The notes: generated from the sequence alone by a model not told the origin. A stretch of 64,000 nucleotides of DNA from Eggerthia catenaformis OT 569 = DSM 20559 (GCF_000340375.1 NZ_KB446649.1:126339-190338), one strand, 5' to 3'; counted from the stretch's first letter, positions 3,090-11,726 are shown. Numbers and translations are program-made.

Positions 3090-4202
3090 ATGACTTATTT
3101 TGATTTTGCAGCTAATCCTCCTGTAAATCAGGATGTTCTAGATACTTTTTATCATATTACAAAAAAATATTATGCTAATCCTAATTCTTTTCATAAATTG
3201 GGAAGAGAAGTCAATCAGCTAATTGAACAATCAACAAATCATATTAAAGAGATTTTAAAAACTGATAAAGAAGTTATCTATACTTCCGGTGCAACTGAAG
3301 CGAATAATCTTGCTGTTAAGGGATTACTGGAAAGATACAGAAATAAAGGAAGACATGTTTTAATCAGTCCTTTTGAACATAATTCTATAACTGCTTCATT
3401 AACATCTATTAAAAATATAGAGATAGAAATTCTTCCACTTGATCATAATGGACAAATTGACTTAAATAGTCTTTCTTCAAAACTAAGAGAAGATACTATT
3501 CTTGTTAGTGTGACAACTGCTGATTCAGAATTAGCCATTCTTCAACCAATTAAGGAGATTGCTAAACTTTTAAAAAACACCAATACTTATTTTCATACAG
3601 ATGCTTCTCAATCTATTGGAAAAGTCTTTATTGATTATAGTGATACTGATTTGGTAACCTTAACTCCACATAAATTTTATGGAATGAATGGTACAGGTGC
3701 CCTGCTAAAAAAGAAAGACATCGGCTTACATTCATTAATTGATGGCGGACGTTCAACGACTATATTTAGAAGCGGCACACCGGTAGCAGCTAATATTATT
3801 GCTTTTGATAAGGCTTTGACCATTGCATTAGAAAAGCAAGAAGAAAGATACTATAAGGTATTAGCTTATCATGATGAATTGTATGATTTTCTTTCTCATT
3901 ATACTCATGTGCATATAAATTCAACAAAGACTTCCTTACCCCATATTATCAATTTTTCTTTACCTTCTATCAAAGCAGATATATTAGCTCAACTATTTGA
4001 AAGTAAAGATATCTATCTTTCAGCAAAAACATCCTGCTGCCCGGCTCATACACCAAGCAAGCCTGTTTATGCCTTAACTCATAACAGACAATATGCTTCC
4101 TCTTCTATTCGCTTAAGTATCTCGCATCTCAATACTAAAGAAGATATTGAAATTTTTAAAAATGCCTTTGATCAAATTTATAAGGAGAATTTTGATGATT
4201 AA
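3090..4202 (+). CDS. Cysteine desulfurase family protein (NifS-like, divergent)
   Basis: PLP-dependent enzyme expected to take sulfur from cysteine as a protein persulfide. The 370 residues match the class-V aminotransferase fold: His97 (PFEHNS), the PLP lysine in TPHKF at residue 195, and an active-site cysteine in the loop SAKTSCCPAH (Cys316/317). Unlike the second desulfurase in this window, the conserved NNEIG motif that touches PLP is replaced by DSELA near residues 145-149, so activity or specificity may differ. Its last 8 bp overlap the TtcA-like gene, which suggests translational coupling and sulfur supply to tRNA thiolation. Confidence 0.85.
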   Translation: MTYFDFAANPPVNQDVLDTFYHITKKYYANPNSFHKLGREVNQLIEQSTNHIKEILKTDKEVIYTSGATEANNLAVKGLLERYRNKGRHVLISPFEHNSITASLTSIKNIEIEILPLDHNGQIDLNSLSSKLREDTILVSVTTADSELAILQPIKEIAKLLKNTNTYFHTDASQSIGKVFIDYSDTDLVTLTPHKFYGMNGTGALLKKKDIGLHSLIDGGRSTTIFRSGTPVAANIIAFDKALTIALEKQEERYYKVLAYHDELYDFLSHYTHVHINSTKTSLPHIINFSLPSIKADILAQLFESKDIYLSAKTSCCPAHTPSKPVYALTHNRQYASSSIRLSISHLNTKEDIEIFKNAFDQIYKENFDD

Positions 4203-5040
4203 ACAAAAAGAAGTAGAAAGAAGTATTATTAAAACTTATCGTAAGGAAATATGGCATAATTTCATTAAATCTTTAAAAGATTATCAACTGATTAATGAAG
4301 GAGATCGTATTATGGTATGTATTAGCGGAGGAAAAGATTCTTTTCTATTGGCTAAATGTATTCAGGAGCTTCAAAGACATGGAAAGATTCATTTTGAAGC
4401 TCATTATGTTTGTATGGATCCGGGATATAATCAATATAATCGTGACTATATTGAAGATAATGCTGATGACTTAGGTATTCCTTTAGAAATTTTTGAAACA
4501 AATATATTTAATGCTGTCAGTTCCGGAGATTTTAAAAATCCCTGTTATTTCTGTGCCAGAATGCGCAGAGGATACTTATATAAACAGGCTCAAAGCTTAG
4601 CCTGTAATAAAATTGCTTTAGGTCATCATTTTGATGATGTCATTGAAACAACATTACTATCTATGTTCTACGGCAGTGAAATAAAAACTATGATGCCTAA
4701 GCTTCACAGTGAAAACTATAAAGGTATTGAATTAATTAGACCTCTCTATCAGGTAAAAGAAGAAGCTATTATCAGATGGCGAGATGCCAATAATCTGACA
4801 TTTATTAACTGTGCCTGTCGCTTTACAGAAGGATGTTCTTTAATTAATGATGGAACAAGTAAAAGAAAAGTTATCAAAGAATTCATTAAAACAATGCGTA
4901 AAGATAATCCTCATATTGATCATAATATATTTGTATCCATGCATAATGTCAATTTAGACTGTGTTATTAAATATAAACTACATAATAAAGAAATGAGTTT
5001 TTTAGACGATTACGAAAAAGATATGCCCCCTATCAAGTAG
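4195..5040 (+). CDS. TtcA-like tRNA thiolation enzyme (PP-loop, Fe-S type)
   Basis: Adenylates and thiolates a tRNA base; the family includes TtcA (2-thiocytidine-32). The start is the ATG at 4195, preceded by AAGGAG, inside the end of the desulfurase gene; an in-frame upstream ATG at 4147 lies deep in that gene and is unlikely. The 281-residue product has the PP-loop SGGKDS at 44-49, a CxxC pair at 117/120 (PCYFCARMRR) and further cysteines in NCACRF near 206-208, the pattern of Fe-S dependent TtcA proteins. Pairing with a desulfurase supports a thiolation role; the exact tRNA position is not shown. Confidence 0.85.
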   Translation: MIKQKEVERSIIKTYRKEIWHNFIKSLKDYQLINEGDRIMVCISGGKDSFLLAKCIQELQRHGKIHFEAHYVCMDPGYNQYNRDYIEDNADDLGIPLEIFETNIFNAVSSGDFKNPCYFCARMRRGYLYKQAQSLACNKIALGHHFDDVIETTLLSMFYGSEIKTMMPKLHSENYKGIELIRPLYQVKEEAIIRWRDANNLTFINCACRFTEGCSLINDGTSKRKVIKEFIKTMRKDNPHIDHNIFVSMHNVNLDCVIKYKLHNKEMSFLDDYEKDMPPIK

Positions 5041-5742: not shown

Positions 5743-6315
5743 TTAACTTAAATAAGAAATCAGATAATGCTGAATAACATTCATTAACCCTGCTAATATC
5801 ATAATCAGAATAGGATCAATTTCCATTTTAAGAAGCAGAAATACACATATACTAAAAATAATAACCATTTGGATTTTTAAATTACTTAATAAAACAATAC
5901 CTGATTCACCAAAAAAAGCTGTTATCAGAATAGAAACACCTGCCGTAGAAATAAGAGCAACAACAGCTGGCCTTAGCATTTTTAATACATTCTGAAGAAG
6001 ATCCATTTTACGATATTTAAGATACAAATAACTGATCATACTTACTATGATAATGGAAGGCAGAATACATCCCAAGGTGGCGACCAGTGCACCGGGAATG
6101 CCTGCGACTTTTATGCCTACAAATGTTGCTGAATTGATAGCAATTGGACCGGGAGTCATTTGTGAGATAGAAATCAGATCAGTAAATTCAGATAAGGACA
6201 GCCATCTATGATAATCGACAACCTGTGACTGAATAATGGGCATAGAGGCATAGCCTCCGCCAAAACTTAAAATACCTACCTGAAGAAAGCTTAAGAACAG
6301 TTTTACATAAATCAT
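5743..6315 (-). CDS. CHR-family (chromate-type) transporter subunit, short form
   Basis: Half-size member of the CHR superfamily, integral membrane proteins that move chromate and probably other oxyanions. The 190-residue product has the family opening FGGGYASMPI, the SQMTPGPIAIN motif and about five or six hydrophobic segments. The start at 6315 has an AAGGAG site and overlaps the upstream partner's stop as ATGA; a longer frame from 6366 would run back into that gene. Short CHR proteins act as pairs. Position at the end of the PTS-sulfatase operon makes an oxyanion such as sulfate a plausible substrate (inference). Confidence 0.88.
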   Translation of the reverse strand: MIYVKLFLSFLQVGILSFGGGYASMPIIQSQVVDYHRWLSLSEFTDLISISQMTPGPIAINSATFVGIKVAGIPGALVATLGCILPSIIIVSMISYLYLKYRKMDLLQNVLKMLRPAVVALISTAGVSILITAFFGESGIVLLSNLKIQMVIIFSICVFLLLKMEIDPILIMILAGLMNVIQHYLISYLS

Positions 6316-6866
6316 TTTTGCTCCTTTCTTTCCTTTAATGAATAAACTATCCCTATTAAAATACATGAAATAATAACAATCATCACATTAATCTTAAAAA
6401 AGTAACTAGCTATAAAGGATCCTATCATGACAACTATATAAATAGGTGATTTTTCTTTTAATATGCCGGACCCCAATTCAAAGCATACTGAAGCAATAAC
6501 TGCCCCTACTCCTGCCTGCATCCCTTCTAACATCAAAGATATAATAATATTGCTTTTTAATATCTGATAAACAAATGAAATAAGTGAAATGATAAGAAAA
6601 GGCGGTATGATTGTCCCTAAAGATGCAATAAAAACTCCAGGCAATCCGGCAATCTTATATCCTACAACTATTGCCCCATTAACAGCAATCGCTCCGGGAG
6701 CACTTTGAGCTATTGCCACTAAATCAAGCATTTCATCTTCTTCAATCCAGTGAAGCCCGCTGACAAACTTCTTTCTCATTAGTGTTACAATGACATATCC
6801 TCCGCCAAATGTAAAGGCACTTAAATAGAACGTGGATATAAACAATGTGATTAGCTTTTTCTTCAT
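6312..6866 (-). CDS. CHR-family (chromate-type) transporter subunit, short form
   Basis: Partner of the next gene; 184 residues with TFGGGYVIVTLM near residue 19, the IAQSAPGAIAVNG motif, and several membrane helices. The two halves probably make a heterodimer with inverted topologies, as known for paired short-chain CHR proteins. It begins 22 bp after the sulfatase stop on the same strand, so it is cotranscribed with the sulfatase and EIIC. Its ribosome-binding site is weak (GAAAGAAG), which suggests coupling to upstream translation. Confidence 0.88.
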   Translation of the reverse strand: MKKKLITLFISTFYLSAFTFGGGYVIVTLMRKKFVSGLHWIEEDEMLDLVAIAQSAPGAIAVNGAIVVGYKIAGLPGVFIASLGTIIPPFLIISLISFVYQILKSNIIISLMLEGMQAGVGAVIASVCFELGSGILKEKSPIYIVVMIGSFIASYFFKINVMIVIISCILIGIVYSLKERKEQK

Positions 6867-6888
6867 TTTATCGCTTCTTTCTTTAAAA

Positions 6889-8376
6889 TTATCTTATGTC
6901 TGTTCCCATTGGAACAAAGTCTCCTGTTTCCATATAATATTGTAACAATCTTTCTTTTAATTGAATAATTATTTCCTTATATTCAGGATTATTAATTTCA
7001 TTTTTAAGTTCTAGCGGATCTTTTTCTAAATCATATAGTTCATCTTGCTCATATAATCTCATAGTATACTTAATATTACCCATACGAATCATACATGCTT
7101 TTGTATGCTCCGGTCCTTCACTGGATTGTGTAGAAAGACGAGGCCAATAAACAGACTCCCTTCCATGACCGCCTTCCATAGCCTGAGTTTCTCCATGAAT
7201 TCTTCCACCTTCACAAAATACTGCATCACGGTGTTCATCATCACCTGCAACAACGTGCAACATTGATTGACCAAATTGTGTATATGACAATTTTATTCCA
7301 CACATATCAGCAATAGTAGCCGGAATATCCAGAAGCTGTCCCAGTGCTTTTGTTTTCCTTGGCTTACAAGGAATATTTTTGGCCGGCTTAATAAGCAATG
7401 GTACATTACTAACAGGATTTTCAAAACAGTTCTGAACTTTTTCTACAATATTATAATCCCCTGTATAATCACCATGATCAGACCATGCAATAATATTTGT
7501 GTCATCATAAAATCCTGTTTCTTTTAGTTTATTTACTACTATACCAAACTGATAATCTAAACGAGAAACCATAGCTAAATAAGTTGCCCTTAATTCTGTA
7601 AAGCGTTCATCACTCCAAGTTTGCAACTGCTGTTTAGACTCAATTCCATAAAGCATACTGGCACGATCTTTGAGTGTAGCAATATTAGGTCGTCTTTGAG
7701 TTATCTTACTTCTATCAATCATAGAATACCATGGCTCTTCACATCCATAAGGAGGATGCGGAAAAAGAAGTGTACAATAAATAAAGAAAGGTTTTCCTTG
7801 TGGTTCTTTACTTTTACGATCTAAATAATCTACAGTGCTTTGAATACAATTCCAATCGATCTCAGAAGATCCCTGATTAGGTATTTTCCCTAGATAAAAT
7901 GAATAATACGAATCATCTTTCATTTCTGCTTCAGTAACTTTCTTCTTATGAGAAGATGTATGCTTCATAAAAAAGGATTCTTTATCAGAAACTTTATTTT
8001 CCAATGAAAAGCCATCATAATACTCATCACAATAAGCCTCTTTAGATCTGTTTCCGGGAATAATATCATTTCTTCCAATCCATATGACTTCATATCCATT
8101 ATTTTTCATTTCTTTAAGAATATTTGGTTCTTCCTGATTTCTTTGTAAATAATGCATAGTACGATGACCTGTGGTATGTGGATAAAGTCCTGTTAAAAAA
8201 CTGCATCGTGATGGAACACATACAGGATTCTGACAATATGCATTTTCAAATGAAATACCATTATTTAGGATGTCATCAAGATTGGGTGTAAGAGAAGCTT
8301 CATTCCCCATATGATGCATAGAATCAGCTCGCATTTGATCTGCTACAAATAATAATATATTATTTTTTTTACTCAT
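6889..8376 (-). CDS. Cys-type sulfatase, cytosolic
   Basis: Hydrolyses a sulfate ester. The 495-residue protein starts with ILLFVADQMRADS (metal-binding Asp) and has the sulfatase signature CVPSR at residues 53-57, where the cysteine must be oxidised to formylglycine. A maturase gene lies nearby at 10647-11726. There is no signal peptide or membrane helix, so it works in the cytosol, unlike many gut-bacterial sulfatases. SD AGGAGG six bases before the ATG. It lies between the PTS EIIC and the CHR pair. The substrate is unknown; a sulfated mono- or disaccharide, possibly after PTS phosphorylation, fits the context. Confidence 0.92.
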   Translation of the reverse strand: MSKKNNILLFVADQMRADSMHHMGNEASLTPNLDDILNNGISFENAYCQNPVCVPSRCSFLTGLYPHTTGHRTMHYLQRNQEEPNILKEMKNNGYEVIWIGRNDIIPGNRSKEAYCDEYYDGFSLENKVSDKESFFMKHTSSHKKKVTEAEMKDDSYYSFYLGKIPNQGSSEIDWNCIQSTVDYLDRKSKEPQGKPFFIYCTLLFPHPPYGCEEPWYSMIDRSKITQRRPNIATLKDRASMLYGIESKQQLQTWSDERFTELRATYLAMVSRLDYQFGIVVNKLKETGFYDDTNIIAWSDHGDYTGDYNIVEKVQNCFENPVSNVPLLIKPAKNIPCKPRKTKALGQLLDIPATIADMCGIKLSYTQFGQSMLHVVAGDDEHRDAVFCEGGRIHGETQAMEGGHGRESVYWPRLSTQSSEGPEHTKACMIRMGNIKYTMRLYEQDELYDLEKDPLELKNEINNPEYKEIIIQLKERLLQYYMETGDFVPMGTDIR

Positions 8377-8409
8377 AGATACCTCCTCAAAACACGAGAA
8401 AAAGCATAA

Positions 8410-9705
8410 TTATACCTTTTCTTCTATCATTTTTTCATCTTTTAAAGCATTATTATCAGCAGCTTTAAAAAACGGATAATAAACTGCCATTTGAACTATA
8501 ACTAATATTAACTGTAGAATAGTTCCTTGCCATCCAACAGTCATTAATGCGGAAAGCCCTATTGGTGTTCCTAATGCATTTGCTACACCATTTGGAAAAG
8601 GAACGAGACCAATTGACATGCATAGATAAGAAATACCAAATGTAATCATTGGTGTTATAATCATAGGAATTAACATTACTGTATTTAGTACCATTGGAAA
8701 ACCAAAAGTAATAGGTTCATTAATACCACAAATACCCGGAATAATAGCTAGCTTTCCCAAAGATTTATAACGTTCACTTTTTGCTAAAAAAAGCATTAAT
8801 ATACAAAGGCCTAAAGTCCCTCCTGCTCCGCCAAGAGAAGCAAAATTCATCCATGTAGATTGAGTAATCAAATTAGGTAAAGCTTTCCCGCCCTGATATG
8901 CTGCTAAATTTTCTAATAATGTTGGCATATACAATGTATTTAATATTGGCATAACTATCATACCACCATGAATACCAAAGAACCACAATAACGAACATAA
9001 TGCTGTACAAAATACAAAAGTTAACGGACTTCTTCCTAGACTGACTAATGGTGATTGGATAACAGAATAAATTAATGAATTTAAATCTCCATAAGAGGTA
9101 AAAGAAAATCCTAATCTAATGAAACTAAATATGAAGACAATTATTAAACTTGGTATAATTGCACTGAAACTTTTTGAAATTGTTGGCGGTACAGACTCAG
9201 GCAATTTAATAGTAATATCTTTTTTAAGAATAATAAGATAAATTTTTGCTGAAAACAAAGCAATAATCATTGCTGAAAACAATCCCGCCGAACCTAGAAA
9301 ACGTGTTGGTAAAAACGCAGCTGTCATACCATTAGTTTTAACTGACTTCAATGGAATCATCAGCATAAATGAAACTAAAGCTGTCGTAGCAATAAAAAGA
9401 CTTTCTTTCCCATAACCTTCTTTTTCACCAAAAGCCTTAGCAATCAAAAAAACAGTATAAACAGCTAACATATCAGTAGTGACTGTTGATGCAAATGAAA
9501 ATAATGTTTTAATACCGGTTTTTGTAATGAGAGCCTGATAAGGCTGAAAGTTTAACGAACTTATAAGAGTAAACAATGCTCCTACCATAACAACAGGTAA
9601 CAAATAAGAAAAACCTGTGGAGATAGAATTTAAATACTTGTTTTGACCTAGCTTATTTGCTAAAGGTACTAAAGTGCGTTCTAAGAATTCATTTATTTTG
9701 CCCAT
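8410..9705 (-). CDS. PTS sugar transporter subunit IIC (Lac/cellobiose family)
   Basis: Membrane permease of a phosphotransferase system. The 431-residue protein has about ten hydrophobic segments and the family hallmark GICGINEPITFG near residue 335. The start at 9705 has a perfect AAAAGGAGG site; an upstream in-frame ATG at 9735 would precede that site. It is first in the operon with the sulfatase 33 bp downstream. No EIIA or EIIB gene lies in the locus, so the phosphoryl carriers must come from elsewhere. The substrate is probably a beta-linked or amino sugar carrying sulfate (inference from neighbours). Confidence 0.92.
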   Translation of the reverse strand: MGKINEFLERTLVPLANKLGQNKYLNSISTGFSYLLPVVMVGALFTLISSLNFQPYQALITKTGIKTLFSFASTVTTDMLAVYTVFLIAKAFGEKEGYGKESLFIATTALVSFMLMIPLKSVKTNGMTAAFLPTRFLGSAGLFSAMIIALFSAKIYLIILKKDITIKLPESVPPTISKSFSAIIPSLIIVFIFSFIRLGFSFTSYGDLNSLIYSVIQSPLVSLGRSPLTFVFCTALCSLLWFFGIHGGMIVMPILNTLYMPTLLENLAAYQGGKALPNLITQSTWMNFASLGGAGGTLGLCILMLFLAKSERYKSLGKLAIIPGICGINEPITFGFPMVLNTVMLIPMIITPMITFGISYLCMSIGLVPFPNGVANALGTPIGLSALMTVGWQGTILQLILVIVQMAVYYPFFKAADNNALKDEKMIEEKV

Positions 9706-9877: not shown

Positions 9878-10645
9878 ATGAATCCTCTTGAAAAATTAGA
9901 TTTTTATAAAAATATTTATACTAAAAAAGATTATAATATTTATGAATATATTAAAAAACATCCAAACTCTATTACACGCTTTAATGTTGAAATGCTGGCA
10001 AAAGAGATTCCTGCTTCTAAAGCAGCAATCATCCGTTTTTCAAAAAAGATTGGCTATAAAGGATTTTCTGAATTCAAATTTGAAATGACTCGTTATATTG
10101 TCTCCGGAGGCAGAGAAAATGAAAATGAAACTATGGATACAATCCAATCAATTACTTCTCTCTATGCCGGTTTTATTAGACAAATTAATGAAACTATTTC
10201 TCTAGATGATGTTTCATTTATTGCTAAAAAAATTGCAAATGCCAGATATGTTAAAATTTTTGGGCAGAATCGAAGTTATACTGCTGCCATGCAGTTTAGA
10301 CATAGACTAGCAAAAATAGGATATGATGCTGAAGCCATTAGAGGTTTAATTCTTTTTGATCAGATTATTGATTATCTTGAAAAAGATGACCTTATTATTT
10401 TCTTTACTACACAGGCTAGAAGCAAGTTTTATAAAAATTATATTAAAAAAGCAAGAAAAAATGGGGTTGCTGTTATTATTATCAGCTGTGCTCAGACCGC
10501 TTTGCTTAATGAAGCTTCTTATTCCATAATTCTACCATCCATATCGGATGCCTCTGAATCATCTTTCTTAGATAATCAGGCACTTTTCTTTGTTTTTATA
10601 GAAATACTTCTTGCCGAAATAGCTTATAGAATTCAAAAGAACTAA
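9878..10645 (+). CDS. RpiR/MurR-family transcriptional regulator (HTH + SIS)
   Basis: A sugar-phosphate responsive regulator of 255 residues. An N-terminal RpiR helix-turn-helix spans about 1-80 (AKEIPASKAAIIRFSKKIGY), and a C-terminal SIS domain spans about 105-250 (VKIFGQNRSYTAAMQF), which would bind a phosphosugar. It is transcribed away from the EIIC-sulfatase operon, the usual arrangement for a local controller. An inducer made by PTS uptake, such as a phosphorylated sugar sulfate or its desulfated product, is a reasonable guess. Its last codons lie inside a terminator hairpin. Confidence 0.9.
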   Translation: MNPLEKLDFYKNIYTKKDYNIYEYIKKHPNSITRFNVEMLAKEIPASKAAIIRFSKKIGYKGFSEFKFEMTRYIVSGGRENENETMDTIQSITSLYAGFIRQINETISLDDVSFIAKKIANARYVKIFGQNRSYTAAMQFRHRLAKIGYDAEAIRGLILFDQIIDYLEKDDLIIFFTTQARSKFYKNYIKKARKNGVAVIIISCAQTALLNEASYSIILPSISDASESSFLDNQALFFVFIEILLAEIAYRIQKN

Positions 10646-10666
10646 GCTAATAGCTTAGTTCTTTTG
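10634..10666. terminator. Bidirectional terminator shared by convergent genes
   Basis: A perfect 15-bp stem (10634-10648 with 10652-10666) and 3-nt loop. The left arm encodes the end of the RpiR gene and the right arm the end of the maturase gene; the two stop codons are adjacent, so both C-termini are coded by the hairpin. Confidence 0.8.
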
Positions 10667-11726
10667 CTATAGTATAAAATATTTGATATGTTTCTTCCAA
10701 AAACATCTGATAGCCGCAATAATCTTTATCAATCAAAATACTTTTCATTCTTTTGCAGTTGCCCTGACAAATATTCACAAAACGGCATTTTAGGCATATA
10801 TTATCAAGACTTTCCGGCTTTCGTATAAATTCCTGTGCAGTTTCCCCTTCTCTCATAGTATCTAATTCATCAGTAAGAATATTCCCCATCCTATAACAAT
10901 CAAGAGCATAAAAATCACAAGGATAAACATTTCCATCAGATTCAATGATATATTGAATCTGACATGAACCAAGCATTCCACATGTACGTGGCATTCTTCC
11001 ACTAAAGATCATAATCAGATCCTCAAATAGTGAAATCGAAACATATTTACCTTTTAAATAATCCTGATACCATAAATTAAATAATTTCTTATAAAATTCA
11101 TAAAACTTATATGGTGATAAAGAAAAATTATTAGACAATTGATTAAGATCGGGAAGACAAGGAATAAACTGAATATGTGAAAAGCCTTCTTTTTTATAAA
11201 AAGTATAGATTTCTTCTACTGAATCAGTAAGCAGAGGAGTAATAACAGTAAGAATATTTATTCTTAACCCGAACTTCTTCATAAGATGAATATTATTTAT
11301 AATTCTATCAAAAGTTGGTTTATTTCCTATACTTCTTAAAGAATCATGACATGCCTTTGTCCCATCTATAGAAACACCAATTAAAAAATCATTATTTTTA
11401 AAGAATCGGAGCCATTCTTCATCTAATAATGTTCCATTTGTCTGAATAGCATAACTTATCTTTTGATTACTTTTCCTTTTATTTACTTCTGTTATAAAGT
11501 TTTTAAAAAAATTTAATCCTGCAAATGTAGGTTCTCCTCCCTGAAAAGCAAAATGAACTATGCCAAATGATAGTCCCTTTTCAATAATAGAAATCATAAC
11601 CTTATTATTCATAATTCCAGGTGATAAAGAATGCCGATGACTAGTTACATCAGCATAAAAGCAATAACGGCAATTCATATTGCATAATGATGATGCAGGC
11701 TTTATTAATAATGAAATTTGCTCCAT
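10647..11726 (-). CDS. Anaerobic sulfatase-maturating enzyme (radical SAM)
   Basis: Converts the active-site cysteine of sulfatases to formylglycine without oxygen. The 359-residue protein has the radical-SAM motif CNMNCRYC near residue 15, FQGGEPTFAG near 60, and a C-terminal SPASM region with the cysteine series CGMLGSC, YPCDFYALDC, CLKCRFVNIC and QGNC that binds two auxiliary clusters. This matches the anSME family in length and pattern. Its target is most likely the Cys-type sulfatase at 6889-8376. It converges on the RpiR gene, separated only by a shared hairpin. Confidence 0.93.
   Translation of the reverse strand: MEQISLLIKPASSLCNMNCRYCFYADVTSHRHSLSPGIMNNKVMISIIEKGLSFGIVHFAFQGGEPTFAGLNFFKNFITEVNKRKSNQKISYAIQTNGTLLDEEWLRFFKNNDFLIGVSIDGTKACHDSLRSIGNKPTFDRIINNIHLMKKFGLRINILTVITPLLTDSVEEIYTFYKKEGFSHIQFIPCLPDLNQLSNNFSLSPYKFYEFYKKLFNLWYQDYLKGKYVSISLFEDLIMIFSGRMPRTCGMLGSCQIQYIIESDGNVYPCDFYALDCYRMGNILTDELDTMREGETAQEFIRKPESLDNICLKCRFVNICQGNCKRMKSILIDKDYCGYQMFLEETYQIFYTIAKELSY

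Follow-up and report, generated by a model that had tools for sequence, protein, structure and literature searches.

An operon of Eggerthia catenaformis OT 569 = DSM 20559 carries, behind the genes for a PTS permease (EIIC) and a cytosolic sulfatase, two short CHR genes in the slot that TauE/SafE occupies in relatives. The likeliest explanation for this arrangement, and a probable one in our judgement, is import of a sulfated sugar, desulfation in the cytosol and export of the freed sulfate by a CHR2/CHR1 heteromer. The import-desulfate-export scheme is not new; the novelty lies in a CHR pair standing in place of TauE. The operon lies in a 64,000-nucleotide stretch that was analysed as a whole (the window), part of a 1.94-Mb genome estimated to be 100% complete.

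Gene content of the operon

Table 1. Window coordinates, strand and family matches of the operon genes and the adjoining regulator and maturase genes.
Feature	Position	Strand	Match or remark
PTS EIIC, lactose/cellobiose family	8410..9705	-	PF02378 171.7 bits; ATG at 9705
Type I sulfatase, cytosolic, CVPSR formylglycine motif	6889..8376	-	PF00884 134.8 bits
CHR2, short CHR, upstream half of pair	6312..6866	-	PF02417 146 bits
CHR1, short CHR, downstream half of pair	5743..6315	-	PF02417 171 bits
RpiR-family regulator (HTH_6 + SIS)	9878..10645	+	PF01418, PF01380; divergent from operon
Anaerobic sulfatase maturase (anSME), radical SAM/SPASM	10647..11726	-	PF04055, PF13186

The first-pass annotation described four closely spaced genes on one strand, and the ORF calls and family matches bear this out (Table 1). 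The spacing is 33 bp between EIIC and the sulfatase and 22 bp between the sulfatase and CHR2; a longer ORF for CHR1 extends to 6366 and includes an ATG that overlaps the CHR2 stop codon by 4 bp. The Pfam and NCBIfam assignments of all four genes are clear. Only one large space lies upstream of the operon, the 172 bp that separate EIIC from the divergently oriented rpiR gene. The annotation also had one promoter heading the operon. Promoter-like matches numbered 42, against 40.4 expected from shuffled sequence, and thus stand at chance level; a single promoter may nonetheless serve the four genes. The divergent position of rpiR is retained in most orthologous loci, and the RpiR protein may control the operon. 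The rpiR and anSME genes converge, with one base separating their stop codons (10645-10647). Elsewhere in the window, a gene for a NifS-like cysteine desulfurase (3090-4202, plus strand) overlaps one for a TtcA-like PP-loop protein (4189-5040, plus strand); the NCBIfam scores of both are under the equivalog cut-offs.

The EIIC scored 334.1 bits against TIGR00410 (cut-off 236), which places it in the Lac-family subfamily, and fell below the NCBIfam cellobiose equivalog cut-off of 434. It is predicted to import a sulfated beta-disaccharide with phosphorylation. A Lac-family EIIA is encoded once, elsewhere in the genome, and GH1 enzymes are encoded at several other places; in several relatives a GH1 gene lies close behind the sulfatase.

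The sulfatase combines PF00884, the C-x-P-S-R motif and a nearby maturase gene, as do Cys-type S1 sulfatases, and the CxPSR columns are invariant across an alignment of 24 homologues. The claim that it has a CVPSR motif and no signal peptide stands: the sulfatase fold starts with its first strand right at the N-terminus (MSKKNNILLFVADQMR), and no signal peptide is visible ahead of it. The protein is without a close relative of solved structure, and its best match in the PDB is 6pt4 (E 2.3e-33). Carrageenan S1 sulfatases head the matches, with choline sulfatase close behind. Phosphonate monoester hydrolases, which also use formylglycine, are among the matches as well (2w8s, 4upk), so that the enzyme might be conceived of as a phosphoester or phosphonate hydrolase whose product the transporter handles. 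We consider this highly improbable, given the sulfatases at the top of the matches and the coupling to CHR and TauE genes, which indicates sulfur oxyanions.

The anSME gene was absent from the first-pass annotation, and its presence near the operon strengthens the case. Its product scored 325.6 bits against TIGR03942, just under the cut-off of 349.45, and its top two family matches are both anaerobic sulfatase maturases. The translation carries CNMNCRYC, and thus has the CxxxCxxC motif together with the radical SAM and SPASM domains. The enzyme would install formylglycine in the sulfatase.

The CHR1 and CHR2 proteins, of 190 and 184 aa, have one PF02417 domain each (cut-off 28.6 bits) and are encoded in tandem, and thus make a short-chain (SCHR) pair. 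They did not match the NCBIfam ChrA and ChrB chromate efflux equivalogs, for which the cut-off is 250 bits (CHR1, 91 and 74 bits; CHR2, 57 and 64 bits). The AF2 models are confident (pLDDT 91 for CHR1 and 89 for CHR2). A Foldseek search of the PDB gave no meaningful fold match to either protein, and hence none that informs the mechanism; a sequence search of the PDB gave no relative of CHR1.

Recurrence of the CHR-sulfatase linkage

The linkage of CHR genes to sulfatase or anSME genes recurs in the nearest relative, across the order and in Clostridia. A linkage unique to the window genome was rejected on finding it in other genomes, and because of this recurrence a chance explanation of the gene arrangement is excluded. 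Many genomes of the order have an orthologue of the sulfatase (56-78% identity), mostly accompanied by the same EIIC gene and a divergent RpiR gene, and often by anSME. A sulfatase 47% identical to that of the window was also seen in a Candidatus Lokiarchaeota sequence (L227, 9989-13147), where a second sulfatase gene adjoins it.

In the closest relative, G030, the anSME-RpiR-EIIC-sulfatase contig breaks off within CHR2. Its final 95 bases recur unchanged at the beginning of another contig, on which CHR2 goes on and CHR1 follows. This genome has a second operon, SULF-anSME-CHR2-CHR1, with intergenic gaps of 12 and 4 bp, and the CHR pair there repeats the first almost identically over at least 1057 bp (L034, L085, L247). 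The contig overlaps suggest the array SULF2-anSME2-CHR2-CHR1-anSME-RpiR-EIIC-SULF-CHR2-CHR1. CHR pairs were also found near sulfatase genes, in varying gene orders, in G024, G100, G120, G112, G258 and G110; in G157 the pair is 7.4 kb from a sulfatase gene. At the other sulfatase loci of the order, a CHR gene lies within 4 kb in 6 of 38, against 0.21 expected from each genome's CHR density (P about 6e-8), the six not all being independent, because four of the CHR pairs make one clade. Clostridial loci were sampled by anSME regardless of CHR; 40 were fetched, and 3 of the 39 with a recognised anSME gene have CHR2-CHR1 directly upstream of it, at 9, 37 and 88 bp. A tree of 89 CHR pairs, in which the position of some long branches is unsure, requires 5 changes of the sulfatase-linked label, at least 4 of them forced by well-supported branches. 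Several CHR lineages carry the sulfatase link.

The CHR genes as such are widespread. They are present in 286 of 316 genomes of the order, and the fetched stretches around 80 other high-scoring CHR loci held no sulfatase or anSME gene, one of these loci (L085) proving sulfatase-linked after contig joining. The window pair itself falls in the common CHR clade of its family, most members of which are without an adjoining sulfatase. We rejected a reading in which CHR proteins partner sulfatases alone, as these genes are near-universal in the order and mostly located elsewhere. This distribution also speaks for the view that the pair is the family's ordinary module, providing tolerance to chromate or another anion, and that its place behind the sulfatase is incidental. 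We hold that view to be unlikely: G030 has the same arrangement, and each of its two sulfatase operons comes with a CHR copy of its own, the recurrence is far beyond expectation, the tight CHR-anSME operons of Clostridia are independent, and the same slot in relatives holds TauE. Since CHR pairs are near-universal and usually far from sulfatase genes, the linkage is read as repeated recruitment of a general module.

Among the CHR loci of the family (L073-L095 included), 9 of 24 have a LysR-like regulator gene close to the pair, and in two sulfatase-linked loci (L052, L056) such a gene is divergent to it. The effector of this regulator could point to the CHR substrate.

TauE/SafE in the slot of the CHR pair

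The replacement of CHR by TauE/SafE is the strongest new evidence and the most informative result. In two genomes of the same family, G023 and G007, a TauE/SafE gene (PF01925) lies directly behind the orthologous sulfatase gene, the copy in G007 being cut by a contig end. TauE is found in sulfatase/anSME clusters of Enterococcus gallinarum, Listeria costaricensis, Lactococcus plantarum and Hungatella, and likewise of Lachnoclostridium, Fusibacter, Clostridium sp. C8-1-8 and Amphibacillus. The clusters of Enterococcus, Listeria, Lactococcus and Clostridia share with the window operon a homologous sulfatase (roughly 54-67% identity) and mostly also anSME and a PTS permease, but have TauE/SafE in the exporter position. 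The exchange is seen at close spacing: anSME is followed by TauE at 17 and 24 bp in L243 and L245, where L247 has the CHR pair instead, and TauE precedes anSME by 15 bp in L293, where L278, L282 and L283 have the pair. Five of the seven TauE-bearing genomes searched (those of L155, L159, L160, L161, L165, L167 and L180) have no CHR gene, and the 1.09 Mb of sequence surrounding CHR pairs that were sampled regardless of sulfatases held no TauE. The CHR pair and TauE/SafE thus appear functionally interchangeable in sulfatase operons; the substrate of TauE at these loci is presumably the sulfur anion released there. One locus (L050 1-14368, in G157) has a CHR pair and TauE together, with two sulfatase, two RpiR and two GH1 genes and anSME.

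Among 48 loci of the window sulfatase subfamily, TauE lies within 7 kb in 13, CHR in 4 and neither in 31; some of the fetched stretches end at contig ends, and G030 shifts from neither to CHR after joining. The 31 loci indicate that a dedicated adjoining exporter is not obligatory. With many sulfatase loci lacking an adjoining exporter and CHR pairs mostly found elsewhere, the pair is best regarded as an anion exporter of general use, which can come under substrate control by joining a sulfatase operon.

This kind of system is already known from the SPH1922-1929 island of Streptococcus pneumoniae, which encodes EIIC, EIIA/B, a sulfatase, a sulfatase-modifying enzyme and TauE, and for which import of sulfated sugars, desulfation and export of the sulfur anion (termed sulphite) were proposed in 2012 (PMC3302838); its genes, including the TauE match, are also given in PMC3283741. 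The window operon is like the island in clustering a Lac-family EIIC, a sulfatase, a maturase and a dedicated exporter, but has a CHR pair for TauE and RpiR for the ROK regulator, and the island has EIIA and EIIB within the cluster and two EIICs. The first-pass annotation took a link of CHR proteins with sugar-sulfate catabolism to be undescribed. The scheme had in fact been published with TauE, but the CHR pair as exporter is new: neither a CHR-sulfatase link nor CHR in the exporter slot is described in the literature searched, which lay mostly outside the subscription journals.

Proposed fate of the released sulfate

The window genome has one sulfatase gene by PF00884 search and only two CHR genes. 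TauE (PF01925) and SulP are absent from it, as is the PF01507 PAPS-reductase family, which is present in 14 of 14 control genomes. With none of these and no other CHR gene, sulfate would be a waste product without another obvious exit among the exporter families searched, and with no evident cellular use it would build up unless exported. We also rejected import of sulfate by CHR, since without PF01507 the genome has no obvious use for sulfate.

We propose that the operon works as a unit in the catabolism of a sulfated sugar, which is probably a disaccharide with a beta linkage. The EIIC, with EIIA and EIIB encoded elsewhere, would bring in and phosphorylate the sugar; anSME would turn the sulfatase cysteine into formylglycine, and the sulfatase would free sulfate in the cytosol. 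CHR2 and CHR1, acting jointly in the manner of the two domains in a long CHR protein, would move this sulfate outward as a general anion-export module repeatedly recruited to sulfatase operons. Gene content, tight spacing, recurrence and replacement are plain from the genomes compared; the substrate, the direction of transport, the pairing of the CHR subunits, the coupling ion and control by RpiR are inferred. Of the import, desulfation and CHR export put forward in the first-pass annotation, the scheme is thus the best-supported reading, with substrate and direction predicted, but the CHR proteins are not dedicated to sulfatases.

TauE/SafE proteins include exporters of sulfite and organosulfonates. 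The CHR pair, and TauE with it, could accordingly swap sulfate for an anion of the phosphate or bicarbonate type, or export another product such as sulfite, and an exchange would agree with the early proposal of CHR as a probable chromate/sulfate antiporter family (Nies 1998, by its title, via PMC8940164). Such a role seems quite unlikely to us, sulfate being the only obvious new anion from the operon enzymes and no sulfite-forming gene being found in the operon with Pfam and NCBIfam. For outward movement of sulfate by the CHR pair, the nearest parallel is YwrB/YwrA of Bacillus subtilis, likewise two adjacent mono-domain CHR genes of ~190 aa, but acting in chromate efflux and with an Lrp-type regulator; a sulfatase context is not described there (PMC8940164). 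Co-extrusion of sulfate by YwrBA has been hypothesised (PMC8940164), which together with the Nies proposal makes sulfate plausible as a CHR substrate.

With the CHR pair in the TauE/SafE slot of a genome that apparently cannot reduce sulfate, CHR proteins gain a concrete role that can be tested, that of clearing sulfate from the cytosolic desulfation of host or dietary glycans. CHR proteins are common among anaerobes rarely exposed to chromate. We suggest tentatively that the short CHR pairs of anaerobic Bacillota could serve physiologically to export sulfate, on a par with TauE/SafE in desulfation operons, with chromate efflux as a by-product. The observations thus suggest a physiological function for proteins known chiefly through chromate resistance, and a disposal route for sulfate in Gram-positive gut bacteria that desulfate sugars intracellularly.
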